Below, in pieces: positions 929-24,301 of a DNA stretch of 38,231 nucleotides. Source of the stretch: Microcella sp. Its GTDB lineage: Bacteria > Actinomycetota > Actinomycetes > Actinomycetales > Microbacteriaceae. The notes beneath the pieces were generated by a model. That model saw only the letters and a program-made list of their open reading frames with translations. It was not told where the DNA came from and made no database searches. Made by a program: the position numbers and the translations under genes. The stretch is from positions 1 through 38,231 of the forward strand of contig NZ_JAUSMI010000070.1 of assembly GCF_030645145.1 (NCBI RefSeq), in the 5' to 3' direction. Numbering within the stretch: position 1 is the stretch's first letter; each line of letters opens with the position of its first letter.

Positions 929-1384
929 GTGGCCCCGACGCCGGGCCTGCGCCGGACATCCCGGATTCTGCTCGTCGACCCGTCGGGAGCGGCGCTCCTG
1001 TTCTTCACGGCCTCGCCCGACACGACGCGCTTCGCCCGCTGGATCACGCCGGGCGGGGGAGTGGACCCGGGGGAGTCGCACGAGCAGGCTGCGATCCGAG
1101 AGCTGTTCGAGGAGACCGGGCTCGTGGTCGAGAGCGTCGGCGATCCGGTGTGGAGCCTCGACTTCGAGGTGACGTGGGATGCCGCGGATCACGACCGCGG
1201 TCACGCCGAGTACTACCTGGTGCGCTGCGAGCGCTTCGAGGCGGTGTCGACGAACTGGACCGATGACGAGCACGTCGACGTGACCGCCCACGGGTGGTTC
1301 ACCGCGGACGAGCTGCTCGCCACCGGCCAGCCCTTCGAGCCCTACGACCTGCCGCGACTGCTGCGTTCGATCTCCGCGTCCTGA
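929..1384 (+). CDS. NUDIX hydrolase
   Basis: Nudix box GGGVDPGESHEQAAIRELFEETGLVVE. Confidence 0.9.
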   Translation: MAPTPGLRRTSRILLVDPSGAALLFFTASPDTTRFARWITPGGGVDPGESHEQAAIRELFEETGLVVESVGDPVWSLDFEVTWDAADHDRGHAEYYLVRCERFEAVSTNWTDDEHVDVTAHGWFTADELLATGQPFEPYDLPRLLRSISAS

Positions 1385-2397
1385 TCGACGCGGGCCGATC
1401 GCCGCCATACCGGCTCGGCCTCCGCCATCTCCTCCTCGGTCGCGATGCGGAACGGGGGAGCGTTCTCCACGACGATCTCGTGCCGGCTCTGCCCGCGCGT
1501 CGCCCGGAGGCTCGCGACGATCGAGACCGTGATGATGAGCGCGACGACCGCGAGCGAGACGCTCGTGGGGATCTTGTAAACGTCGAGCAGCAGCATCTTG
1601 ATGCCGACCCAGATGAGCACGAACGCGAGGCCGAGCTTCAGGTAGATGAATCGGTGCATGAGGTCGGCGAGCAGGAAGTACATCGCGCGCAGACCCAGGA
1701 TCGCGAAGGCGTTCGCGGTGAAGACGATGAACGGCTCGCTCGTGACGCCGAAGATGGCCGGGATGGAGTCGACGGCGAAGATGATGTCGGTCACCTCGAC
1801 GAGCACGAGCACCGCGAGCAGGGGAGTGGCGACGAGGACGCCGGCCTTGCGGATGAGGAACTTCTGCCCGTGGTACGCGTCGGTCATCGGGATGACGCGC
1901 TTGAAGGCCTTGAGGATCTTCGAGTTCGCGACGTCCATGTGCTCGTTGCGCTTCCGGATCATCATCCAGCCCGTGTAGAGCAGGAACGCCGCGAACAGGT
2001 AGAGGATCCAAGAGAACTGATCGATCAGCACGGCGCCGAGGGCGATGAAGATGCCGCGGAACACGAGCGCACCGAGCACGCCGAGGAAGAGCACGCGGTG
2101 CTGGTACTCGCGGGGCACGTGGAAGAAGGCGAAGATGATCGCCCACACGAAGACGTTGTCGACCGCGAGCGACTTCTCGATGAGGTAGCCGGCGTAGTAC
2201 TGCTGGCCCAGCTCGGCGCCGTACTCGGCCCAGATGTAGCCGCCGAAGGCGACGCCGAGCGTCACCCAGATGATCGACCACACGGCGGCCTCGCGCACGC
2301 CGATGACGTGGGCCTTCCGGTGGGCGAAGAGATCGATCGCGAGCATGGCGATGATGACGCCGAGAACGGCGAACCACAGCCAGAGGGGTACGTCCAT
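1342..2397 (-). CDS. TerC family integral membrane protein (probable Mn2+ exporter)
   Basis: TerC signatures: SLAVDNVFVWAIIFAFFHVP, VEVTDIIFAVDSIPAIFGVT, FIVFTANAFAILGLRAMYFLL. Preceded by a yybP-ykoY riboswitch. Confidence 0.95.
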   Translation of the reverse strand: MDVPLWLWFAVLGVIIAMLAIDLFAHRKAHVIGVREAAVWSIIWVTLGVAFGGYIWAEYGAELGQQYYAGYLIEKSLAVDNVFVWAIIFAFFHVPREYQHRVLFLGVLGALVFRGIFIALGAVLIDQFSWILYLFAAFLLYTGWMMIRKRNEHMDVANSKILKAFKRVIPMTDAYHGQKFLIRKAGVLVATPLLAVLVLVEVTDIIFAVDSIPAIFGVTSEPFIVFTANAFAILGLRAMYFLLADLMHRFIYLKLGLAFVLIWVGIKMLLLDVYKIPTSVSLAVVALIITVSIVASLRATRGQSRHEIVVENAPPFRIATEEEMAEAEPVWRRSARVDQDAEIERSSRGRS

Positions 2398-2404
2398 GAC
2401 GGAG

Positions 2405-2435
2405 CTCCTGAATGGTCGATGAGGTTATTCAGGAG
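2405..2435 (-). promoter_or_regulatory. Anti-Shine-Dalgarno hairpin (riboswitch expression platform)
   Basis: Perfect 9-bp inverted repeat CTCCTGAAT (2405-2413) / ATTCAGGAG (2427-2435) with a 13-nt loop. On the transcript, ATTCAGGAG contains the terC SD and its partner overlaps the 3' strand of aptamer P1. Confidence 0.8.
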
Positions 2436-2534
2436 GTCTTTCCCGGCCGGAACGGTCAGATTCGGCCCGTGGCGCCGGATCTGCATGAGCGGATCGAAAT
2501 GACGACGCGACGCGGGTCGGGGATACTCCCCTCC
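2432..2534 (-). promoter_or_regulatory. yybP-ykoY (Mn2+) riboswitch aptamer upstream of terC
   Basis: Minus-strand RNA GGAGGGGAGUAUCCCC...GUCGUCAUUUCG...AUCCGGC...GGGAAAGACCUCC contains the family's conserved blocks GGGGAGUA, GUCGUCA-UUCG, CCGGC and AAGACC. P1 closes as GGAGG/CCUCC. Confidence 0.92.
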
Positions 2535-2647
2535 GCGGACAAGTAAACCACACTTCATGCTTCTCGCGCGCTCGGCCCGGGGATCTTCTCGGCGGATTCT
2601 CGTGCGGGGCCCGCCCGGCCGAGCACGACCAGTGATGTGATGGGCGG

Positions 2648-18544: not shown

Positions 18545-19972
18545 CTACGCCGTGAGGTCGACCGCACCGCCGAGCCGGGCGAGCAGGACGGCCTCGGTGA
18601 GGATCGCGCGGTGGAGCACGCCGAGGTGCAGCGACTCGTTCGGGCTGTGGGCGCGGGTGTCCGGGTCCTCCACGCCCGTCACGAGGACGTGCGCGTCGGG
18701 GAAGGTCTCCATGAGCTCGGCGATGAACGGGATCGAGCCGCCGACGCCGACCATGACGGGGTCGGCCTCCCACGCCTCGCGCATCGAGGTGAGGGCCTCG
18801 TCGACCGCCCACGCGCTCGTGTCGACGAGGAACGGATTGCCGAGGTCGACGGCGCCGAAGGTGAGCCGCGCGCCGAAGGGCGCGTGCGCCTCGAGGTGCG
18901 CGCGGAGGGCGGCGAAGGCCTCGGCCGCCGACTGCCCGGGGGCGACGCGCGCGCTGATCTTGACCGAGACGCTCGGCAGGAGCGTGTTGGACGCGTTCTG
19001 CACGCTCGGCGCGTCGATGCCCGTGACGGTGATCGAGGGCTGGGCCCACAGTCGGTGCAGCACGGGGCCGCGGCCGATCGGCGTCACGCCGTCGAGCAGA
19101 GCCGCCTCCTCGCGGAGCCGCTCGTCCGTGTACTCGGGGACATCCTGGTGGTGCGCGCGCAGCCCCTCGACCGCGACGGACCCGTCGGCGTCGTGGAGCG
19201 TCGACAGGAGGCGGACGGTCGCGAGCATCGCGTCGGGCGCGGCGCCGCCGAACATCCCCGAGTGGGAGGCGTGGCCGAGGGTGGAGACGGTGAGCGTGAA
19301 GGCGGCGTTGCCGCGCAGGCCGACCGTGAGCGAGGGGGTGCGGACATCCCAGTTGTCGGAATCGGCGACGACGATGACGTCGGCGGCGAGCAGGGCGCGG
19401 TGCTTGTCGAGCAGGGCGGTGAAGGAACGGGAGCCGAACTCCTCCTCCCCCTCGATGAAGAGCACGAGACCGAGCTCGGGGTCGCCGACCGACTCGACGA
19501 GCGCGCGGATCGCGGCGACGTGCGCGATCACGCCGGCCTTGTCGTCGGCGGCACCGCGACCGTATAGCCGATCGCCGATGACGGTGGGCTCGAACGGCGA
19601 CGTCTCCCAGTCCTCGTCGCGGCCCGGGGGCTGCACGTCGTGGTGCGCGTAGAGGAGGACGGTCGGGCGGCCATTGCGGGGCTCGCGGCGGGCGAGGACG
19701 GCGGGTTGGCCAAGGGTGGCAGTGCCGGGGATCTCGGCGCGGTCGACGATGACCTCGTCGAAGACGCCGAGCTCACGGACGAGGCGGGCGACCTCGTCGG
19801 CGGAGGCCTGCACGTGCGCCGGGTCGAAGCCGTCCCACGACACCGAGGGGATGCGCACGAGCGTCGAGAGGTCGGCGATCGCCGCCGGGAGCCCGTCTCT
19901 CACGCTCCCCCGCAGCTGCTCGATCAGATCGGTCGGGGTGGCGGGCCTCGTGGGCCGGTCGTGGAGCGTCAT
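18545..19972 (-). CDS. M20 family dipeptidase
   Basis: VLLYAHHDVQPPG, RGAADDKAGVIAH, IEGEEEFGSRSF, HASHSGMFGGAAPDA. Confidence 0.94.
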   Translation of the reverse strand: MTLHDRPTRPATPTDLIEQLRGSVRDGLPAAIADLSTLVRIPSVSWDGFDPAHVQASADEVARLVRELGVFDEVIVDRAEIPGTATLGQPAVLARREPRNGRPTVLLYAHHDVQPPGRDEDWETSPFEPTVIGDRLYGRGAADDKAGVIAHVAAIRALVESVGDPELGLVLFIEGEEEFGSRSFTALLDKHRALLAADVIVVADSDNWDVRTPSLTVGLRGNAAFTLTVSTLGHASHSGMFGGAAPDAMLATVRLLSTLHDADGSVAVEGLRAHHQDVPEYTDERLREEAALLDGVTPIGRGPVLHRLWAQPSITVTGIDAPSVQNASNTLLPSVSVKISARVAPGQSAAEAFAALRAHLEAHAPFGARLTFGAVDLGNPFLVDTSAWAVDEALTSMREAWEADPVMVGVGGSIPFIAELMETFPDAHVLVTGVEDPDTRAHSPNESLHLGVLHRAILTEAVLLARLGGAVDLTA

Positions 19973-24085: not shown

Positions 24086-24301
24086 CTACGGGCGGTCGGT
24101 GCCGATCGCGCCGTCGATGTTCGACTTGACGTCCTCGATCTGGTCCGAGAACTTCCCGCCGGTGACCTTGTCGGCGGCGTCGGCCACGGCGTCGAGGACC
24201 TTGTCGCTGATGTCCTCCGCCTGCTCGCTCTCGAGCATGCCCTTGACCTGGTCGCTCTCGAGGAACTCCTTGGCCTTGCCGGTGATGTCGTCGATGCCCA
24301 T
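24086..24301 (-). CDS. Rv0909/MT0933-like 'antitoxin' family small protein
   Basis: 71 aa MGIDDITGKAKEFLESDQ...ADAADKVTGGKFSDQIEDVKSNIDGAIG; SD GAAGGAGG before ATG. Confidence 0.65.
   Translation of the reverse strand: MGIDDITGKAKEFLESDQVKGMLESEQAEDISDKVLDAVADAADKVTGGKFSDQIEDVKSNIDGAIGTDRP

Follow-up and report, generated by a model that had tools for sequence, protein, structure and literature searches.

A compact yybP-ykoY-type leader of terC in Microcella and other Actinomycetota: a probable translational Mn2+ riboswitch

The terC locus and the elements of its leader

The window, that is, the whole 38,231-nucleotide stretch of DNA analysed here, belongs to a Microcella genome of 2.4 Mb in 176 contigs, and among named relatives Microcella and Yonghaparkia are the nearest. 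On its minus strand, the terC gene encodes a protein that is recognised as TerC (PF03741, E 6.5e-55) and also matches the NCBIfam model TIGR03718 R_switched_Alx, with 417.6 bits against a cut-off of 246.4 (E 3.3e-125). The TerC/Alx gene family is tied to Mn export (PMC13274385).

The initial annotation had placed a yybP-ykoY riboswitch in the leader of this gene, and had described a set of conserved blocks, a P1 helix of GGAGG and CCUCC, and a perfect 9-bp repeat overlapping the Shine-Dalgarno (SD) sequence. All of the blocks were found on the minus strand: GGGGAGUA at 2531-2524, GUCGUCAUUUCG at 2506-2495, CCGGC at 2478-2474 and GGGAAAGACCUCC at 2444-2432. The helix, P1.1 in the following, pairs GGAGG 2534-2530 with CCUCC 2436-2432, and the repeat pairs CTCCTGAAT (2435-2427) with ATTCAGGAG (2413-2405) over all nine positions. 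The comparative evidence comes mainly from A2, an alignment of 19 sequences, and from two models. R1 was derived from A2 and thus represents 19 relatives, including the window sequence itself; R2 rests on 71 copies taken from named TerC loci of Actinomycetota other than that of the window. Neither model contains an E. coli sequence. The features of the locus, from terC to its promoter, are as follows.

1342..2397 (-): terC, coding for a 351-aa membrane protein of the TerC/Alx metal homeostasis family; ATG at 2397
2405..2413 (-): SD arm AUUCAGGAG; the SD is AGGAG at 2409-2405, with a spacing of 7 nt to the start codon
2427..2435 (-): anti-SD arm CUCCUGAAU, pairing with 2405-2413 at 9 of 9 positions; the pairing is kept with other sequence in other genera
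2428..2537 (-): whole aptamer, matched by models R1 and R2
2432..2436 (-): shared strand CCUCC, the 3' strand of P1.1; 2435-2432 also opens the anti-SD arm
2441..2444 (-): P1.2 3' strand GGGA, from covariation in A2 and RNAalifold
2445..2467 (-): P4 hairpin, GGCCG 2467-2463 with CGGCC 2449-2445, from RNAalifold and covariation
2468..2512 (-): P3 arm, 2512-2510 with 2470-2468, 2508-2506 with 2474-2472, and P3.2 2495-2490 with 2483-2478, from RNAalifold on A2 and covariation counts
2475..2478 (-): CCGG, the 3' side of L3; in A2, CGG is invariant and the first C is present in >90%
2500..2505 (-): L3 motif UCGUCA; UCGNCA in 113 of 117 distinct leaders, UCGUCA in 108 of 117
2520..2523 (-): P1.2 5' strand UCCC, partner GGGA 2441-2444, with covariation in the wider sets
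2524..2529 (-): L1 loop GGAGUA, the metal-site loop; GGAGUA in 115 of 117 distinct leaders
2530..2534 (-): P1.1 5' strand GGAGG of the switch helix, partner 2432-2436; invariant in A2, covarying in other genera
2544..2557 (-): degenerate copy of TGAAN6TTCA in the terC promoter, TGAAGTGTGGTTTA, with one mismatch; candidate operator of a MarR-like regulator

Aptamer architecture and family membership

RNAalifold, run unaided on A2, recovered P1.1, P1.2, P3 and P4. These helices lie in the order of the yybP-ykoY family, L1 forming an internal loop within P1 and L3 lying in P3, and the leader carries the family's L1 (GGGGAGUA) and L3 (UCGUCA..CCGG) together with the invariant adenosine. Eleven pairs in A2 are altered on both sides; none of 500 shuffles matched the observed values, and structures slid along the alignment showed far lower covariation than the true one. 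Both-side changes occur at 23 of 25 pairs in the wider set A3 and at 21 of 25 in A4 (0 of 500 shuffles each), in alignments that were fitted to the model and are therefore biased towards its structure. P1.1, which does not vary in A2, takes the forms GAAGG/CCUUC, CGAGG/CCUCG, CAAGG/CCUUG, UGAGG/CCUCA and GAAAG/CUUUC in these wider sets. The fold energy of the window leader by itself is unexceptional (z = -1.25). For the outer part of P3, the pairing proposed by RNAalifold (A2 columns 28-30 with 70-72) was better than the one tried first (24-27 with 71-74). The latter was kept out of the parts list; the models were nevertheless built with it. The element as a whole lies beyond chance: R1 matches it in every genome of the genus (26 of 26), its covariation is unmatched by shuffles, and its hairpin pairing survives replacement of the sequence.

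A search with the Rfam family RF00080 had been put forward as a test of the assignment, with the lack of a hit at normal thresholds counting against it. Formally, this adverse outcome was obtained. Rfam-15 RF00080 had no match at its gathering score in the whole window and none in the 401 bases around the leader at E up to 10; in 40 relatives it gave scattered matches of 8-16 bits, none above the cut-off, and in 20 further actinobacterial loci it likewise gave none above the cut-off. As positive controls, however, the E. coli alx leader was not matched at all, and E. coli mntP reached 41.6 bits, below the threshold of 45. The silence of RF00080 on the window thus reflects a limit of the model and is uninformative, and we dropped it as a deciding test; its gathering score is a database criterion rather than a biological one and does not define the family. 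The printed RF00080 consensus has an L3 of the CGUCAACAUACU type and leaves the GACC strand unmodelled. The window and alx share an L3 of the UCGUCAUU-CGAU ... AUCCGG type.

DNA similarity located the leader in 18 of the 40 genomes searched, and the TerC leaders of Kocuria and Nocardia plasmids have the same layout. With E-values that are rough owing to shortened calibrations, the window scored 124.4 bits (E 2.8e-25) with R1, of which its sequence is a part, and 90.1 bits (E 5.1e-20) with R2; alx was found by both R1 (33.8 bits, E 1.6e-5) and R2 (45.8 bits, E 3.5e-9), and mntP was found weakly by R2 (22.3 bits, E 0.002) and had no match with R1. Two extra matches in the window, at 24087-24163 and 19519-19612 (13.9 and 15.4 bits), were taken as noise. 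This homology to experimentally validated members, together with the covariation, supports the assignment to the yybP-ykoY family.

The alx leader is a literature-accepted translational Mn2+ riboswitch, the reporter expression of which is raised by Mn2+ (PMC9603457). Like alx, the terC leader has the L1 GGGGAGUA, an L3 of UCGUCAUUACG...CCGG, a GAGACC strand and a target of the TerC/Alx family, and it shares with alx a compact distance from GAGUA to L3, without a P2 hairpin. Measured to UCGUCA, it spans 17 nt in alx and 14-21 nt in those leaders that allow the measurement. Since 14-21 nt cannot accommodate a P2 hairpin in addition to P1.2 and the P3 5' strand, the terC leader lacks the P2 helix and the four-way junction of the published structures (PMC6754395, PMC11087558). 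On our reading of the sequences, it and alx would both form a three-way junction, and P2 was not taken as defining for the family, as the accepted member alx would also lack room for it. On the other hand, the sequences of P1.1 and the anti-SD hairpin differ between the two leaders, and in alx P4 is much longer and the 3' leader is extended as well.

In mntP, the translation initiation of which is switched on by Mn2+ (PMC9603457), the L1, P1.2 and GAGACC strand align with those of the terC leader (the 22.3-bit R2 match), but there is room for a P2 hairpin, L3 is of the CGUCAACAUACU type and the exporter belongs to another family. The crystallised aptamers of X. oryzae and L. lactis likewise resemble the terC leader in the P1.1 switch helix, which is Mn2+-stabilised there, in the L1-L3 docking and in the invariant adenosine (PMC6754395), whereas they form a four-way junction with P2, and X. 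oryzae has been discussed in terms of transcription antitermination. The L3 adenosine (A41 in L. lactis, A48 in X. oryzae) discriminates Mn2+ (PMC6754395), and we read A2500 as its probable counterpart from the motif. Another actinobacterial terC leader, that of Corynebacterium glutamicum cg2157, was assigned to RF00080 with an older Rfam, at 49.13 bits (PMC3890552), and is likened to ours by annotation rather than by alignment; unlike that call, the current RF00080 matches none of the tested actinobacterial loci.

The anti-SD hairpin and the level of control

The strand CUCC 2435-2432 is common to P1.1 and to the 9-bp hairpin, so that the two are mutually exclusive, as had been proposed, and the comparison of native with swapped pairings supports this competition. 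The extensions that follow CCUCC vary by genus (UGAAU, AGUUGG, GAUC, GGUAC, GGUGC and others), and most of them are matched by the pre-SD sequence. With one leader for each of 23 distinct extensions, the native pairings averaged -14.8 kcal/mol as compared to -10.6 (sd 0.47) for permuted ones, and none of 100,000 permutations matched the native mean. The native pairing was better than the swap mean in 61 of 69 leaders, and no better in the other 8. Among 49 named leaders, the SD lies at a median of 7 nt before the start codon, as placed by homology, and is paired with the 3' arm of P1.1 with a mean probability of 0.83; forcing P1.1 raised the freedom of the SD from 0.15 to 0.49. In a minority of relatives, the SD was not freed by a forced P1.1. 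Overall, the helix that masks the SD is in competition with a helix of the aptamer and is kept by covariation. An intrinsic terminator was rejected for lack of a U tract 3' of the hairpin, which makes translation the likely level of control in the window.

We consider it very probable that the terC leader is a compact yybP-ykoY Mn2+ riboswitch, P2-less and alx-like, that acts as a translational ON switch. At the level of sequence comparison, the evidence shows the predicted aptamer structure, the competing hairpin, the sequestration of the SD and the link to TerC; Mn2+ as the ligand and the ON direction of switching are what we infer from the family. The aptamer (P1.1, L1, P1.2, P3 with L3, and P4) would be transcribed first. 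Bound Mn2+ would dock L1 on L3 and lock P1.1, holding CCUCC and leaving the SD free. Without Mn2+, CUCCUGAAU would pair with AUUCAGGAG, and the SD would be buried and no TerC made. In X. oryzae, P1.1 is stabilised by Mn2+ via the L3 adenosine (PMC6754395).

Folding the leader with and without a P1 constraint, as the initial annotation had advised, gave -62.7 kcal/mol for the unconstrained ensemble and -50.0 kcal/mol with P1 forced, in which case the SD was only partly free. In the metal-free fold, the anti-SD state is therefore favoured by about 12.7 kcal/mol (mean of the other leaders, 11.8), a gap that is probably overestimated, since the energy model ignores the non-canonical pairs of L1 and the L1-L3 docking. 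A Kd of about 50 uM has been reported for mntP and its relatives (PMC9603457), which by our arithmetic corresponds to about 6 kcal/mol. Given that an OFF preference of about 12 kcal/mol exceeds the roughly 6 kcal/mol from Mn2+, equilibrium binding alone would be insufficient, and the mechanism would require that control be kinetic or that tertiary contacts absent from the model add stability. Control is probably kinetic rather than at equilibrium, in that Mn2+ would keep P1.1 closed beyond the emergence of the SD arm.

The same aptamer might instead act mainly on transcription, by Rho-dependent termination in an untranslated or poorly translated leader or by termination at the hairpin. Blocking of ribosomes can open an mRNA to Rho, and Rho- and riboswitch-dependent control is reported for E. 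coli mntP (PMC11647493), so that a Rho contribution could be added to translational control. As the main mechanism it seems unlikely, because the SD is part of the 3' arm of the hairpin, after which comes CUCCGUCAUG without a U tract, and because the same arm stands at the SD spacing in the relatives (median 7 nt). It is also conceivable that the fold responds chiefly to another signal, either a different metal or alkaline pH, to which alx is reported to respond. The conservation of L1, L3 and the discriminating adenosine, as well as a target gene in a family tied to Mn export (PMC13274385), makes this quite improbable, even though alx, the closest validated relative, answers to alkaline pH as well as to Mn2+ (PMC9603457). 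That the hairpin simply sequesters the SD, for example as an RNA thermometer, with the aptamer-like blocks arising by coincidence, can hardly be sustained in view of the covariation of the aptamer in 117 distinct leaders and its homology to alx. The FourU thermometer (RF01795) did give a sub-threshold match (15.1 bits against a gathering score of 60, E 2.5), but this was rejected, since it is far below threshold and, being on the plus strand, runs antisense to terC. The translational Mn2+ riboswitch therefore remains our preferred reading.

Distribution and promoter palindromes

Beyond the genus, R1 matches were found in 140 of 297 genomes of the order and in 58 of 297 genomes drawn from the phylum. 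TerC lies directly downstream of 71 of the 74 copies inspected, an association with Mn export and TerC-family genes that is typical of yybP-ykoY. None of the phage records searched carries the leader. The riboswitch class is a known one; its compact form occurs widely among Actinobacteria and escapes the current RF00080. Mn2+ export would thus be controlled by a riboswitch in much of Actinomycetota, overlooked when genomes are annotated with the present Rfam model. Because the 3' strand of P1.1 must fit both its 5' partner and the SD, covariation by itself reveals the two competing states, which are directly testable.

Of the 117 distinct leaders, 35 have the palindrome GAAN6TTC upstream of P1.1, where shuffled sequences would give 1.4, and 20 have its extended form TGAAN6TTCA (0.06 expected); nearly all copies lie 22-32 nt from P1.1. 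For 22 of these leaders, a small gene for a MarR-like winged-helix protein is located near terC; the palindrome is present in every one of the 22, as compared to 13 of the 95 without the gene (Fisher p 4e-15, uncorrected for kinship). In the genome of the window, a MarR-like homologue on contig C40 (G000:C40:29027-29287) faces an Sbt-type transporter (PF05982), and two of the four TGAAN6TTCA sites in this genome are just upstream of that gene (G000:C40:29361-29406). We take GAAN6TTC as a putative operator of the MarR-like regulator, and its co-occurrence with the regulator in many relatives suggests dual control of terC. If confirmed, the operator would add a transcriptional layer on top of the riboswitch, both acting on one exporter. 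We offer the complete picture tentatively, with doubt slightly outweighing acceptance: Mn2+ riboswitches without P2 would make up an alx-like branch, common across Actinomycetota and overlooked by RF00080, in which TerC translation is controlled kinetically and, in part of the branch, terC is also controlled by a MarR-like winged-helix regulator at GAAN6TTC promoters.

Several further loci deserve mention. The palindrome and the MarR-like gene are also associated at L142:1029-1322 and L115:25-670. The genome of the window has a second riboswitch copy on a second TerC gene (G000:C9:12426-12526, equal to L086:3427-3527), with weak anti-SD pairing, and three loci (L093, L094 and L095) contain two co-oriented copies about 1.1 kb apart, each preceding a TerC gene. 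Two genomes of the same family have the riboswitch in front of a non-TerC gene (L087:1696-2571 (-) and L102:871-1734 (+)) without a Pfam or NCBIfam match, which is possibly a new Mn2+-regulated protein; L115:3586-3849 (+) begins similarly. Finally, the riboswitch and terC match scores are identical or nearly so across Amycolatopsis, Pseudonocardia, Prauserella, Saccharopolyspora and Saccharomonospora (L168-L175 and L177), a likeness that suggests recent horizontal transfer.
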